The position numbers and the translations under genes are program-made. Under the pieces are notes generated by a model. The model searched no databases, had not been told where the DNA came from, and saw only the letters and a program-made list of their open reading frames with translations. Positions 11,667 through 47,973 of a stretch of 64,000 nucleotides of DNA are shown here, in pieces; the stretch's first letter is position 1; each line of letters opens with the position of its first letter. This DNA is from Halobacteriales archaeon QS_6_71_20 (GTDB taxonomy: Archaea; Halobacteriota; Halobacteria; Halobacteriales; Haloferacaceae), in NCBI GenBank assembly GCA_003020945.1, contig PXRU01000010.1, forward strand, positions 1 through 64,000, written 5' to 3'.

Positions 11667-12806
11667 TCAGACAGCGCCGGTCTCGCCGTCGCCGCGGGCG
11701 AACTGCGACTCCGCGACCGCGAACGTCAGCGTCGACAGCACGCCAAGCAGCGTGCCGGCGGTCAACGCGACCGCAAGTCTGGCGAGCGACAGCGGCACGA
11801 CCGCGGCGCCGGGAATCTGCGGGAGGAAGTAGCCCGAGAGCCCGTACAGCACGACCGCGATCGCCACGACGTAGAACGGCGCGTTGAGGTAGCGCCAGCG
11901 GAAGCGGTCGGCGAGGTACTCGTCGGTCACCTGCCCCAGCGAGGAGGTGATCCCCGCGGCGGCGGCCCACCGCACCGCCGCGTGGACGAACACCGCCACC
12001 GTCTGCGTCGGCGACAGCGACGGCGACCCGGACGCGGATCGTGCCGCCTCAAGTGCCTCCACGCCCTGCACGCCGCCGATCACCAGCAGCGCCAGCGCCA
12101 CGAGGTAGGTGACGATCGTCACGCGCCCGGCGTAGAGACCGTTGCGTGCCCGCTCGGCGAGCCCGTCGATCGTCTCCTCCAGCCCCAGCCCGCGAAACAG
12201 CGTGTACAGCCCGAGCAGCGTCGATATCCCGCCGATGACGAACGCGCCCGGGAGGTCCATCACCCCCGCGATCACGGAGAACGGGTACACCAGCAGAAGC
12301 ACGCCCAGCGGGATGAGGATCGTCCCGCGGGTCTCCGGGTCCGCGAGCACCTGCTTCATGGTGTAGTAGATGGATTCGAGGTCCTGCGCCTGCCGGACGA
12401 CGACCCGTCGGACGCCGTCGAGCGGGACCCGCGACCGGATCACCGGTAGGACGGACTCGTCCTGTGCGCCGTCGGTGATGACGACGGCGCGCACCTCCTC
12501 CCCGGTCGACAGCGCCGCAAGCACCGTGTCGACCTCCTCGCCGACCGCCCGGTTCGCCTTCACGTCCCCCTCGTCGACGCCGGCGACGGCGGCGACGGCG
12601 ACCTCCTCGTCGACGGCGTCGTCGGCCCGGAGGTCGTCGTGGGCGTTGATCGCCTGGAACAGGACGTTCACGTCGGAGTCCTCCGGGTCGACGGTGGCGA
12701 GCCGTACGGCCGCCGCCTCGACCTCCTCGCGGCCGATCACCGGGGTCCGGACCCCGGTCTTGCGACCGAGGTCGTCGTCGAGGTCCACGGGGAGGACGAG
12801 GATCAT
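11667..12806 (-). CDS. DUF373 family integral membrane protein (second copy)
   Basis: The 379-residue protein starts MILVLPVDLDDDLGRKTGV and shares layout and the VVVRQAQDLESIYY block with the gene at 3158-4309. It has a soluble N-terminal half followed by about six membrane helices from residue 150. The function is unknown. It lies 110 bp upstream of the geranylgeranyl reductase gene on the same strand. Confidence 0.85.
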   Translation of the reverse strand: MILVLPVDLDDDLGRKTGVRTPVIGREEVEAAAVRLATVDPEDSDVNVLFQAINAHDDLRADDAVDEEVAVAAVAGVDEGDVKANRAVGEEVDTVLAALSTGEEVRAVVITDGAQDESVLPVIRSRVPLDGVRRVVVRQAQDLESIYYTMKQVLADPETRGTILIPLGVLLLVYPFSVIAGVMDLPGAFVIGGISTLLGLYTLFRGLGLEETIDGLAERARNGLYAGRVTIVTYLVALALLVIGGVQGVEALEAARSASGSPSLSPTQTVAVFVHAAVRWAAAAGITSSLGQVTDEYLADRFRWRYLNAPFYVVAIAVVLYGLSGYFLPQIPGAAVVPLSLARLAVALTAGTLLGVLSTLTFAVAESQFARGDGETGAV

Positions 12807-44459: not shown

Positions 44460-44532
44460 AGTCCCGTGGTGTAGCGGCCAATCATGAGGGCCTTTGGAGC
44501 CCTCGACGGCGGTTCGAATCCGCCCGGGACTA
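44460..44532 (+). tRNA. tRNA-Gln (anticodon TTG)
   Basis: A 73-nt cloverleaf folds cleanly. The acceptor stem AGTCCCG pairs with CGGGACT, and the anticodon stem AGGGC/GCCCT encloses loop CTTTGGA with anticodon TTG. The T arm is GGCGG-TTCGAAT-CCGCC and the discriminator is A. No CCA is encoded and no intron is present. T-rich stretches follow at 44539-44542 and 44553-44557 as likely termination sites. The last bases are repeated 1.9 kb downstream, marking the tRNA as an integration site. Confidence 0.93.
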
Positions 44533-44534
44533 TT
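44519..44534 (+). repeat. Putative attachment-site repeat at the tRNA-Gln 3' end
   Basis: These 16 bases, TCCGCCCGGGACTATT, cover the 3' T-stem and acceptor strand of tRNA-Gln. They recur in direct orientation at 46411-46426 with one mismatch. Integrases of archaeal elements commonly recombine within tRNA 3' ends and leave exactly such a direct repeat. Confidence 0.7.
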
Positions 44535-44682
44535 CACATTTTGGTACGGGTCCGTTTTTATTGTGGCTTTGCCAGTAGTTCTAGCTGATGAGCGTCGGCG
44601 CAGTGAGGAGAATGATCTCGGACGTGAGCCGACTATCTTGCCGTTCAGATGATGGACGAAGTGAAACTGAGCTGACTGTTTT

Positions 44683-45636
44683 TTACGCCGTAGGCGTGCC
44701 ACGAGCAACCTGCTCGTAAATGTGCTTTTCAGACCGCACGAAGTCCCCATCCTTCTGAATCACGTCCACAGATGCGAGCTCGCCCAGCTTGTCTTGGAGG
44801 TAGAAGCGATCCTTGCGCTCCCCATGCAGCTCCTCGAAGTTGTCTGCAATCGTGTCGATGTCCAGCCACAGGTCTTGCTTCCCGCGCTGAACGGCGTCGA
44901 AGTAGTACGCCCCAGAGTACTTCTGGTAGTGCCCAAGCATACTGAGGTTTAGCTTGTCGCGAATCGTGACGTACCCTCGTTGCACGACGTCACCGAGGAA
45001 CTTCCGACCGAACTCATCCCAACTGTATTCGTTCAAATCAGCGGATTGCAGGCGCTCACCAGGTAGAATTTCATCGTCTTCGACTTTGATGTACCCGAAG
45101 TTCTTCAACAATTCAACGTACTCACGCGTGTTCTTCGAACGCTGGTTATCATCGGTCCGAGACACTGTGAGACCGCGTCGGTTCCGAGCGGCACGTAGAA
45201 TCTGGAGAATCGGATTGAGCTGCGTTCGGACAGCTGGGAGGTCATAGACGTGTTTGTAGATGGCTTGGGCCATCGAGAAATCCAGTTTCTCCCTGATTTC
45301 TTCCTCACGCTGATCAATGCCATCGATAACCTCGCTGCGGTCAGGGACATCAATGAGGTAGACACCCTGACCGGTGTCTTCGGCCTCAATCGTGTATACG
45401 TCTCGCAGTGTGATGAACTTCAGAACGTTGTCATGGTCACGACAGTCGCTGAGGTCTCGTGGGAAGGCGTTCCCGAGAGACACTTCTAGATTCCCGTTCG
45501 GGAGTTTGTGCACGTCGTGAACGTAAACGCCTCTGCCGAGGTGGCGCTTGAGACGCGTTTCGGCGTGACCGCCTCGTAGTGCTTCTGGATTCTGAACGCG
45601 AATTGCGTTGTCTGGTGATGCTTCAGTCGTAACCAT
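44683..45636 (-). CDS. Unrecognised cassette protein with winged-helix-like segments
   Basis: The 317-residue protein starts MVTTEASPDNAIRV (ATG 45636). Its N-terminal part (residues about 25-110) is predicted beta-rich. A middle part resembles a winged helix (PILQILRAARNRRGL, then NTREYVELLKNFGYIKVEDD). A second wHTH-like region is near the end (FYLQDKLGELASVDVIQKDGD). It has no catalytic motif I can name and no membrane segment. It starts one base after the stop of the C39-like peptidase gene, so the two are co-translated. It may be a DNA-binding regulator or the target or sensor for the peptidase; I cannot decide. Confidence 0.6.
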   Translation of the reverse strand: MVTTEASPDNAIRVQNPEALRGGHAETRLKRHLGRGVYVHDVHKLPNGNLEVSLGNAFPRDLSDCRDHDNVLKFITLRDVYTIEAEDTGQGVYLIDVPDRSEVIDGIDQREEEIREKLDFSMAQAIYKHVYDLPAVRTQLNPILQILRAARNRRGLTVSRTDDNQRSKNTREYVELLKNFGYIKVEDDEILPGERLQSADLNEYSWDEFGRKFLGDVVQRGYVTIRDKLNLSMLGHYQKYSGAYYFDAVQRGKQDLWLDIDTIADNFEELHGERKDRFYLQDKLGELASVDVIQKDGDFVRSEKHIYEQVARGTPTA

Positions 45637-45637
45637 G

Positions 45638-46282
45638 CTATTCGTCTCCGAATGCTGCTGACAGCGTTTGTTGTTTGGATGGTTCGAGCCACAGCGCCCA
45701 ACGTTTTTCAGGTCGTGCCCACCACTCGTTGAAGGACTTGATGGGGACATTCATTGCGCCGTCTTCGTCGATGGTGTCGAGCTCGTGGAAGAACTGGATA
45801 TAGGGATCGAAGTAGAGCACAGTATTGTCGTTGATTTTGAACGGGATGATGACGTGTTTCCATCTTCCGAATCCGTCCAATCCGGGTTCAGGTGTGTAGT
45901 TGTCGGTGTGCTGAGCAATGTCTTCGAAGTATTGTTGATGGAATTCGCACAGCGGGAGAGAGCGGTCGTCAGATTCAATGATAGTTTGGAGTTGGTCGTA
46001 GCCGACGCCGGTCATGTGATTGACTTCCCAGCCAGCGTCCTCAAGGAGTGGGTCGAGGCGTGCGGCGAGGCGGTCAGATGCTGATGCGCGGTTTTCGACG
46101 TAGTCGAGGGCGTTGCCGAGGTCGCTGATACTGTAGCGAAGGTCTGGGTCATCTTTGCGGTCGGCGAGTTCGTCGAGGATGTTTTTCAGGGCGGTTGGGA
46201 AGCAGCTGTCAGGTTCAGGTTGGGTATGGAAGTCGGTGACAGCTGTCTGGTATCGTTCCCTGTCGTCGTTCGTTATTGTCAC
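45638..46282 (-). CDS. C39-like papain-fold cysteine peptidase
   Basis: The 214-residue protein (GTG start at 46282) contains Gln21-x5-Cys27 followed by FPTALKNIL, the exact spacing of the oxyanion Gln and nucleophile Cys in C39 peptidases. His143 (WKHVIIPF) is followed 16 residues later by Asp159 (YFDPY), the family spacing for the rest of the triad. There is no signal peptide or membrane segment, so it acts in the cytoplasm unless released. C39 enzymes normally cleave after double-glycine leaders in exporters. A free-standing one in an integrated cassette could be a toxin, a processing enzyme or a defence effector. The middle domain (residues 45-110) is helical. Confidence 0.65.
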   Translation of the reverse strand: MTITNDDRERYQTAVTDFHTQPEPDSCFPTALKNILDELADRKDDPDLRYSISDLGNALDYVENRASASDRLAARLDPLLEDAGWEVNHMTGVGYDQLQTIIESDDRSLPLCEFHQQYFEDIAQHTDNYTPEPGLDGFGRWKHVIIPFKINDNTVLYFDPYIQFFHELDTIDEDGAMNVPIKSFNEWWARPEKRWALWLEPSKQQTLSAAFGDE

Positions 46283-46314
46283 TTTTCGACCCTGTCTGTG
46301 AATTGCATTGGCAC

Positions 46315-46322
46315 TAATTAAA
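46315..46322 (-). promoter_or_regulatory. Promoter of the integrated cassette
   Basis: TTTAATTA on the minus strand is the strongest TATA-like box in the neighbourhood, centred about 36 nt before the GTG at 46282. The gap 46283-46746 otherwise holds the second att-like repeat (46411-46426) and a T-arm-like fragment (46517-46530). Confidence 0.5.
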
Positions 46323-46410
46323 TATGGTAGTTACTGTGTAGCCTCCGGCCGTTCATAGGTTCAAGGAGCGGAGTTTATATCAATTCGGATTAGAATTTCT
46401 CCGGTATCAG

Positions 46411-46426
46411 TCCACCCGGGACTATT
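46411..46426 (+). repeat. Distal copy of the tRNA-Gln att repeat
   Basis: TCCACCCGGGACTATT matches 44519-44534 at 15 of 16 positions in the same orientation, with one G-to-A change in the T-stem position. It is followed by a T-run. It marks the far end of the cassette. Confidence 0.7.
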
Positions 46427-46516
46427 TTTCCGCGAGCAGTTCCGCGAACGACATCGTGAGCGCTGTTAGTCACGACGCGGATCCGAGTCCGGGAGACGCG
46501 CGAACGTGAGTCTTCG

Positions 46517-46530
46517 CGGTTCGAATCCCG
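46517..46530 (+). other. tRNA T-arm-like fragment (B-box)
   Basis: The 14 bases CGGTTCGAATCCCG carry the complete archaeal and eukaryotic tRNA T-loop/B-box consensus (GGTTCGAATCC). They share 13 bases with the T arm of tRNA-Gln 2 kb upstream. No acceptor or anticodon stem can be built around it, so it is not an intact tRNA. It may be a relic of an earlier integration or of a lost tRNA. Confidence 0.35.
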
Positions 46531-46746: not shown

Positions 46747-47973
46747 ATGAGTACGCTCTCCGCCGCGTCACAGGTCCTCAGGCGGGTCGCCGCGGACTTC
46801 TCCGAGAAGAACGTGACGTTCATGGCGGCGGGTATCGCCTACAACGCCCTCGTCTCCCTGGCCCCGCTGGTGATCCTGCTGTTGTTCGTCGTCTCCGAGA
46901 TCGGCGGCGGGCTGGAGCGACGGCTGATCGACACGGCGACCGGCTCGCTGCCGGGACCGATCGCCGGGGTCGTCACCGACATCGCGGGCGCCGACACCGC
47001 CGTCTCCACCGCGTCCGTCGTCGGCGTGGTCGTCCTCCTCTGGGGGACGCTCAAGATCTTCCGCGGGCTGGACACGGCGTTCTCCGAGATCTACGAGACG
47101 GAGGCCGAGAACTCCATCGGCGACCAGATCGTGGACGGACTCGTCGTGCTCGCCGTGCTGGTCGTCGCGATCGTCGCGACGGCGGGCGTTACCGTCGTCG
47201 TCTCCGCGCTCTCGGGCACGATCCCGTATATCTGGTTGGCCACCCCGCTCGTGTTAGTCGCGGGACTGTTGGCGGCGTTCCTCCCGATGTACCGACGGTT
47301 CCCGGACGCCGGCCTCCGATGGCGAGAGGCGCTCCCGGGGGCCGTCGTCGGCGCGGTCGGCTGGGCCGCGCTTCAGGGGCTGTTCCGGGTGTACCTCACG
47401 TTCACGGGCGACGGCACCGGCGGCTTCTTCGGCGGCGTGATCGTCGTCATCACCTGGCTGTACTTCTCGGGGGTCGTGCTGCTGCTGGGCGCCGTTCTGA
47501 ACGCCGTCCTCGCCGGCCGGTCGACCGGCCGGCCCGGCGGCGTCGGCGCGGCCGTCGCGTGCCGCGACACCGAGACGGAGCTTGCGCGGTCGCTGGAGCG
47601 GGCGGAGCTGTCGAGCTACCTCCGCGACCTCCGGGAACGGATCACCGGGCGCTACGAGGAACTGGAGCCGGCACCCGACCGGCCGAGTTCCGAGTCCGAC
47701 GGGGCCACCGGGGCCGGCGGGGCGGCGTCGGGCACGGCGAACGGCGGTTCCCCCGGCGGCGGGGGCGCCACCGTCCTCGCCCGGGAGGCGACGTCGGCCG
47801 GCGCCGACGGGCGAGACGGCGACCGACTCGTGCGAGAGATCGAGGGCACCCTCCGGGCGTACCGACCGCGCTCGCCGCCGGAGGAGCCGATCGAGGTGGT
47901 CGAGTGCTCCCGCGTCGACGACGGCGAGCGGGTCCACGAGGTCACGGTCTCCTGGCGCACGCCGGAGTCGTAG
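46747..47973 (+). CDS. YihY/BrkB family membrane protein
   Basis: The 408-residue protein has six membrane helices in residues about 20-260, with FMAAGIAYNALVSLAPLVIL near the start, LRWREALPGAVVGAVGW and VVITWLYFSGVVLLLGAVLN, all typical of the YihY/BrkB family. The C-terminal 150 residues are soluble and acidic with a Gly/Ser-rich linker. The function of the family is unclear; the RNase BN label is outdated. The ATG at 46747 has a CACTTAGTG box about 30 nt upstream. Confidence 0.88.
   Translation: MSTLSAASQVLRRVAADFSEKNVTFMAAGIAYNALVSLAPLVILLLFVVSEIGGGLERRLIDTATGSLPGPIAGVVTDIAGADTAVSTASVVGVVVLLWGTLKIFRGLDTAFSEIYETEAENSIGDQIVDGLVVLAVLVVAIVATAGVTVVVSALSGTIPYIWLATPLVLVAGLLAAFLPMYRRFPDAGLRWREALPGAVVGAVGWAALQGLFRVYLTFTGDGTGGFFGGVIVVITWLYFSGVVLLLGAVLNAVLAGRSTGRPGGVGAAVACRDTETELARSLERAELSSYLRDLRERITGRYEELEPAPDRPSSESDGATGAGGAASGTANGGSPGGGGATVLAREATSAGADGRDGDRLVREIEGTLRAYRPRSPPEEPIEVVECSRVDDGERVHEVTVSWRTPES

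Follow-up and report, generated by a model that had tools for sequence, protein, structure and literature searches.

A probable integrase-less insertion at a haloarchaeal tRNA-Gln gene and its cargo, a conserved mobile gene pair with two derived three-gene forms

The first 64,000 nucleotides of contig PXRU01000010.1 (C10) of Halobacteriales archaeon QS_6_71_20 (G000; 2.65 Mb in 32 contigs), hereafter the window, contain a single transfer RNA (tRNA) gene, a tRNA-Gln(TTG) detected by ARAGORN, and behind it stands a short piece of DNA with two genes, called A and B here. How did this piece come to lie there, and what might its genes do? An original prediction had taken it for a small cassette integrated at the tRNA gene, either a stripped remnant or a non-autonomous cargo. 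We find an AT-rich piece of 1.9 kb between tRNA-Gln and its native downstream sequence, flanked on either side by a copy of the tRNA 3' end (Table 1). We are highly confident that the piece, which has no integrase, was inserted at a tRNA attachment site, because the repeat is the tRNA end itself, the genes are absent in genus-mates, the native flank resumes behind the second repeat, and an integrase-bearing island fills the same site in a relative (G009; labels in G and L denote genomes and loci of our comparison). In this respect the prediction is well supported.

The left repeat, TCCGCCCGGGACTATT, and the right one, TCCACCCGGGACTATT, are identical at 15 of 16 positions, and the match extends to 25 nt at 80%. 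With one mismatch at most, the 16-mer has only these two copies in the window, both strands counted; its chance expectation, ~4e-5 by composition in 2.5 kb of one strand, holds for this specific 16-mer and not for any repeat. Between the repeats the G+C content is 0.529, against 0.714 in the rest of the window, and the lowest value among 1876-bp windows starting outside 43-46.5 kb is 0.617. A composition equal to that of the genome had been named as an argument against recent insertion; compared with the window, this is not what is seen. Both genes lie on the minus strand, B with a GTG and A with an ATG start, and repeat, AT-richness and the content of just two co-oriented genes are all as originally described.

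The surrounding locus, in which a DtxR-like gene precedes tRNA-Gln and an EndoIII gene lies beyond it, is kept in all ten other genomes of the genus. In each of these the DtxR-like gene lies at -718 to -1226 bp from the tRNA core, and EndoIII is found 771-968 bp to the right of the tRNA in eight genomes, at 2060 bp in G008 and at 21.9 kb in G009 (3989 bp in the window). None of the ten has A or B at this site, and a B homologue was found nowhere in their genomes. The occurrence of both genes at this position in most relatives, which was to speak against recent insertion, is thus seen in none of them. The original prediction held in part here: the pair is missing from the site in all ten, and BrkB, which was expected directly after the tRNA of an empty site, follows it in none, its orthologue being present at the locus only in G009 (67% identity). 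The next gene after the tRNA core is a small conserved one ('VTL') at 83-238 bp in eight of the ten; in G008 it lies at 1346 bp, behind a redoxin-like gene. This genome (L107) carries between tRNA-Gln and VTL a different insert of ~1.3 kb with, by reading, the redoxin-like gene and another small gene, for which a clear tRNA repeat was not found. Separately, in two of the ten genus-mates, L114 (G010) and L115 (G002), and in further genera of the family, tRNA-Gln is broken after ~39 bases by a short stretch that is probably an intron; run in bacterial mode, ARAGORN does not detect the interrupted gene of L114.

In G009, the sequence CCGCCCGGGACTAT occurs at 200382, within the tRNA, and at 220072, just before BrkB. 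The 19.7 kb between these copies include genes for HsdM (PF02384, expectation value E 4e-103), a Phage_integrase protein (PF00589, E 3.6e-18) and a PLD-domain protein; two further genes are HsdS- and HsdR-like by reading only. No arm sequence common to this island and the window insert was found beyond chance, and two integrases of the window's own genome (L154, 34% identity over residues 88-364; L158, 26%) are too distant from that of G009 for a sister relation to be assigned. The window piece presumably entered by the same kind of recombinase as the island of G009.

The right boundary was placed with the help of a short unit that stands behind tRNA genes. In four of the ten genus-mates (G001, G005, G007, G010), tRNA-Gln is followed by a unit of ~100 bp that ends in a second copy of the tRNA 3' end. 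A profile made from eight of these units (tRNA-Gln, -Leu and -Lys) matches the window to the right of the second repeat (nhmmer, E 6.5e-9 in 64 kb), its other match being only the tRNA's own end, and the same segment, to which the original prediction made no reference, matches the unit of L108 (blastn, E 4e-7). The native tRNA-downstream sequence therefore resumes there; between the tRNA and the second repeat nothing unit-like was found.

These units deserve a description of their own. They are ~90-111 bp long, follow various tRNAs and consist of a spacer and, at the end, a tRNA-specific direct copy of the 3' end; most contain an inverted T-arm piece, GGATTCGAA, and a partly shared stretch, GCAGGGAACGGAGCGAAGCGGAGTGACC or similar, precedes the 3'-end copy. 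Apart from the window, they were seen at L108-L110 and L114 (tRNA-Gln), L132, L136 and L143 (tRNA-Leu), L134 and L146 (tRNA-Lys) and L137 (tRNA-Val, on contig C22 of the window's own genome), and in G130 tRNA-Lys is followed, at exactly 111 bp, by four tandem copies. A strict pattern finds units in 5 of 195 genomes of the order and a looser one in 8 of 11 genomes of the genus, 2 of the 10 rows of the latter being tRNA clusters. In form they resemble minimal tRNA-end elements or serial duplications, and the part of the literature open to our search yielded no published description.

As for the cargo, the profiles of Pfam, PADLOC, NCBIfam and PHROGs and the sequences of PDB gave B nothing above chance level. 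Foldseek, queried with its AlphaFold model, returned the C39 domains of ComA first (3k8u, probability 1.00, E 2.8e-4; next E 5.5e-4), followed by CtaG and staphopains, and against 3k8u the template modelling (TM) score is 0.42 by query and 0.61 by target. C39/papain-like enzymes share a general arrangement of Gln, Cys, His and Asp, with which B was compared. In the predicted model C27 lies near the start of a long helix, H143 opens a strand and D159 comes after the next strand; together with Q21, these residues occupy the four positions. At a locus outside the order (L153), the A homologue is preceded by a 220-aa protein whose best Pfam match is PF03412 Peptidase_C39 (E 2e-4, 21.6 bits, cut-off 22). 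Within the order, B of L092 matches PF13529 below the cut-off (E 0.0033) and B of L097 has no Pfam match. Going by the model, B most probably has a C39/papain-like fold.

Gene A, too, has chance-level matches only in the four profile libraries, and none in PDB by sequence; among the known anti-phage models (PADLOC 2.0.0) its sole match is Csx19 (E 0.0081, 14.5 bits, chance level), while B has none. Its model, with a predicted local distance difference test (pLDDT) score of 82.9 (next model 75.0, others down to 57.8), has a beta-rich N-terminal domain, long helices and winged-helix-like units, and the best Foldseek matches, the winged helices of SelB (E 0.0033, TM 0.17/0.26), give a hint only. 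The N-terminal part is conserved, and the A homologue of L153 is recovered by hhalign with a probability of 96.8%. On the predicted structure, A would be a sensor or regulator.

Of 392 genomes of the order, 20 have B (in 17 of 95 genera) and 23 have A; a phylum-wide set of 392 genomes gave five matches to the A profile, the own genome included, of which one (L153) lies outside the order. B stands directly upstream of A, on the same strand, in all 19 loci other than the window, and in L088 and its copy L122 a 1.65-kb insert splits B with A still open. Two haloarchaeal plasmids carry A; the one from Haloferax lucentense (L129) has a tyrosine recombinase gene before B and, close by, genes for a DNA methyltransferase and a helicase. 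In the closest copies (L087, L120, L121; A 88-90% identical to that of the window) the DNA alignment with the window, with 79-82% identity, is confined to the genes plus ~50 bp upstream at most, and the pair forms AT-rich patches (G+C 0.48-0.56 in 500-bp bins, surroundings 0.58-0.74) among ordinary genes. All 12 comparisons among the four close copies gave ratios of nonsynonymous to synonymous substitution rates (dN/dS) of 0.022-0.052, with dS at 1.06-3.0, near saturation. No relatives turned up when B and the A alignment were compared with viral contigs and A with phage records. Three of the 23 A matches cover only part of the N-terminal third: in L022-L024 (G168, G265, G176), open reading frames of 170-198 aa in genomes lacking a B match correspond to A residues ~31-117 only. 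The N-terminal domain of A may thus also occur alone.

Is the tRNA site the usual address of this pair? A tRNA lies close by in 2 of the 19 other loci of the order, namely L101 (tRNA-Leu beside the third gene discussed below) and L102 (tRNA-Val ~440 bp from A), and none of the 19 has a tRNA-end repeat on both sides. Among the tRNAs of L097, L101, L102 and L105, only that of L101 has an end copy nearby, and tRNA-like flanking repeats are missing from all 21 other module loci. Because the relatives lack near tRNAs or two-sided tRNA-end repeats, the form bounded by attachment (att) sites is peculiar to the window locus and is not how the pair generally travels. The two genes are under purifying selection and move together, in most cases by a route other than tRNA sites that are still visible. 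Two side observations concern its placement. In L094 and L096 (G258 and G304, one genus) its position is the same, flanked by genes that read as HIT- and Prs-type; and in L101 the last 20 bases of tRNA-Leu (12518-12605) have an exact copy ~90 bp downstream, which is confined to the tRNA side of the three-gene module.

The strongest hint to function came from loci with a third gene. Twenty-four loci with a readable B were scored for catalytic residues; L088 and L122 (B split), L127 (B frameshifted), L128 (contig end; DUF2254-like gene present) and L153 (distant) were left out. Cys, His and Asp are all present in the 13 loci without a third gene (window, L087, L089-L097, L120, L121), including L094, where Gln is replaced by Arg and the B copy holds a stop. 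In all 11 loci with a third gene, Cys and/or His are lost: L100 and L102 keep Cys and lack His, and L129 keeps His and lacks Cys. The third gene is DUF2254-like and convergent with A in seven loci (L098, L101, L103, L104, L126, L129, L130), and DUF2971-like and divergent from B in four (L099, L100, L102, L105). The search spanned ~20 kb, with shorter spans in L092 (5 kb), L120 (9.8), L089 (13.5) and L121 (14). Profiles were built from L101, L103 and L104 and from L099, L100 and L105, and the independent matches are those of L098, L126, L128, L129, L130 and L102 only. In Pfam the assignments fall below the cut-off (DUF2254, E 9.7e-6 and 0.0011 for two proteins; DUF2971, E 0.027 for one of four); one record is annotated as DUF2254 in its own entry. 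In a tree of 26 A proteins each third-gene group forms a 100/100 clade, in different parts of the tree, with two label changes under midpoint rooting. These two clades, together with the C39-like neighbour in L153, which hints at the catalytic form as the older one, point to two probable losses of catalysis, with a new gene of another kind next to the pair in each case.

The neighbourhoods add a suggestive defence signal, which is weaker for the protease form found in the window. Among 80 neighbours at eight third-gene loci, the best 25 of 117 PADLOC families include three type IIG restriction enzymes and the MADS parts mad2, mad3 and mad8 with two members each, all at E 1e-10 or better. Pfam, scanned for these neighbours, agrees on the type IIG enzymes with three Eco57I proteins and adds two ABC transporter proteins; the protease-form neighbours were covered by PADLOC models and partial reading. 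No published description of the B-A module was found in the open-access literature, nor anything describing these elements in work on haloarchaeal islands, including the passages available from PMC4158269 and PMC8371274.

One might picture the history of this locus as follows. The piece would have entered by site-specific recombination of a tyrosine integrase supplied in trans or since lost. B would most likely be a C39/papain-like cysteine protease acting as effector, a role that we assign to it in the two-gene form mainly because loss of Cys or His coincides with the third gene, and A, with its predicted winged helices, would most likely be a sensor or regulator that keeps B inactive until it encounters a trigger, for instance viral DNA or RNA or the disturbance of a host process. 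Released B may then cleave proteins of the cell or the virus and stop growth or infection. In two side branches, where Cys, His or both are gone from B, the effector part would have passed to the product of a third gene, a membrane protein of DUF2254-like type in one branch and a DUF2971-like protein in the other, with A and the scaffold of B kept. All this suggests effector replacement in an undescribed defence- or addiction-type module. Taken whole, insertion at the site plus an effector-sensor cargo is the best explanation and moderately likely. An effector-sensor pair with effector replacement is, as a part of it, an evenly balanced possibility, and we only tentatively hypothesise an antiviral function rather than addiction or another role. 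More speculative still, and rather doubtful, is the idea that B-A might represent an undescribed archaeal immunity family with A as constant sensor, B as scaffold and three interchangeable effectors (the B protease, the DUF2254-like and the DUF2971-like protein), whose protease form would be the minimal cargo and settle at tRNA sites via the integrases of other elements.

Several observations weigh against this account. The insert has no integrase gene, as originally noted, A and B being its only genes, and the six integrase-family matches of the genome all lie off contig C10. The closest copies of the pair (L087, L120, L121) lack both a tRNA in the 10-20 kb searched (the left flank of L120 covering only ~200 bp) and a tRNA-like flanking repeat. 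When any repeat was allowed in the 600-bp flanks of the module, 2 of 21 other loci scored at least as high as the window (L091, 14; L094, 13; window, 13), with reverse-complement controls reaching 12; the repeats of L091 (14 bp) and L094 (15/16) are not tRNA-like, and the weight accordingly lies on the identity with the tRNA 3' end and the position before the native flank, not on length. As regards B, no Pfam peptidase match was found for the window protein, its AlphaFold model, from 8 sequences, has a mean pLDDT of 68.6 (other four models 67.7 to 37.7), and the B profile matches the C39-like protein of L153 weakly (hhalign probability 16%, E 0.0016). L103 and L130, both of the DUF2254 group, have identical A, which reduces the 11 third-gene loci to 10 distinct cases, and the whole third-gene split amounts to about two independent events; L127 is without a third gene, yet its B is frameshifted, with A open. 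Around the protease form (92 neighbours, nine loci) few neighbours are defence-like: the best 25 of 51 PADLOC families have single matches, one of them PD-Lambda-3_A, except for two HIT-family matches; most of the single ones probably stem from one type IIG gene of L097, and the two HIT-family ones from the HIT genes beside L094 and L096.

Three other explanations have to be compared with the one proposed. It is unlikely that the second repeat predates the insert, duplicated tRNA 3' ends being found in the family, and that the genes entered the spacer without an integrase. Cargo-free duplications after tRNA-Gln in four of the ten genus-mates, the tandem copies after tRNA-Lys in G130, and the L101 module, which lies just beyond a tRNA-Leu duplication with no far-side copy in 20 kb, would fit such a course. 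Against it, the unit of the window lies to the right of the second repeat, which thus occupies the place of the tRNA end in relatives, nothing unit-like was found between the two repeats, and the G009 island with its integrase lies between copies of the same core.

The other two concern the cargo. The pair might be an addiction (toxin-antitoxin) module spreading for itself, with B a toxic protease, A its antitoxin and autorepressor, whose winged helices would bind DNA, and the tRNA site incidental. Two small adjacent genes with a patchy distribution (20 of 392 genomes), carried on two plasmids, standing alone among ordinary genes in the closest copies and between HIT- and Prs-type genes in L094 and L096, with a winged-helix hint in A, are what such a module would offer. 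We hold it to be somewhat unlikely: A is larger than typical antitoxins, its N-terminal part is conserved, and effector replacement accounts better than simple addiction for a loss of catalysis that goes with the gain of a third gene. Quite improbable is a role of B as a processing protease regulated by A, serving peptide maturation or another cell function instead of defence. C39 domains do process leader peptides of secreted peptides, the best structural matches of B are the C39 domains of the ComA exporter, and 2 of the 80 neighbours at third-gene loci are ABC transporter proteins; but those ABC genes adjoin loci whose B lacks catalytic residues, and the pair is retained despite catalytic loss in 11 loci.

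Table 1. Features of the tRNA-Gln locus, in window coordinates
Feature	Position	Strand	Basis
tRNA-Gln (TTG), intact, attachment gene	44460..44532	+	ARAGORN; syntenic in 10/10 genus-mates
Left repeat, attL-like core: tRNA 3' end plus 2 bases	44519..44534	+	Repeat search; core also bounds the G009 island
AT-rich insert, 1876 bp, G+C 0.529	44535..46410	.	Genes absent from the site in 10/10 genus-mates
Gene A, 317 aa, partner of B; predicted beta-rich N-terminal domain and winged-helix-like units	44683..45636	-	
Gene B, 214 aa, GTG start; predicted C39/papain-like cysteine protease fold, Q21-C27-H143-D159	45638..46282	-	
Right repeat, attR-like, 15/16 identity to tRNA 3' end	46411..46426	+	
Degenerate ~100-bp tRNA-downstream unit ending in partial tRNA 3' copy (46516-46528)	46444..46530	+	nhmmer
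BrkB-family membrane protein, first chromosomal gene right of the insert	46747..47973	+	Pfam PF03631, E 2.3e-42

If the proposed effector-sensor reading is true, a candidate defence or addiction family exists that none of the four profile libraries names, and it comes with a natural experiment, the same pair with and without the catalytic site, each loss being paired with a new third gene. A two-gene insert at a site filled by a full integrase island in a relative also makes mobilisation in trans testable in haloarchaea.

How does the locus compare with known systems? Judged as a tRNA-anchored element, it has the tRNA repeat at both ends and an empty site in relatives, and no internal integrase. 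It shares with the G009 island the tRNA gene, which is intact in both, the 3'-end core and the AT-richer accessory genes; that island measures 19.7 kb and has an integrase, whereas the window insert measures 1.9 kb, with two genes and no integrase. The window insert is of a known kind, though small, and the novelty lies in its cargo, the conserved mobile B-A pair and its two derived three-gene forms. With the C39/papain peptidases (PF03412, PF13529; ComA domain, staphopain), B of the two-gene form has in common the predicted fold and the Gln-Cys-His-Asp order; it differs in standing alone, not fused to an ABC exporter, in the missing Pfam peptidase match of the window protein and the sub-threshold ones of its relatives, and in the loss of the residues in two branches. 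As in toxin-antitoxin and abortive-infection modules, B-A is a small two-gene unit that is patchy, mobile and under purifying selection; unlike them, it has no PADLOC match beyond the chance-level Csx19, and a third gene stands beside it where catalysis is lost.

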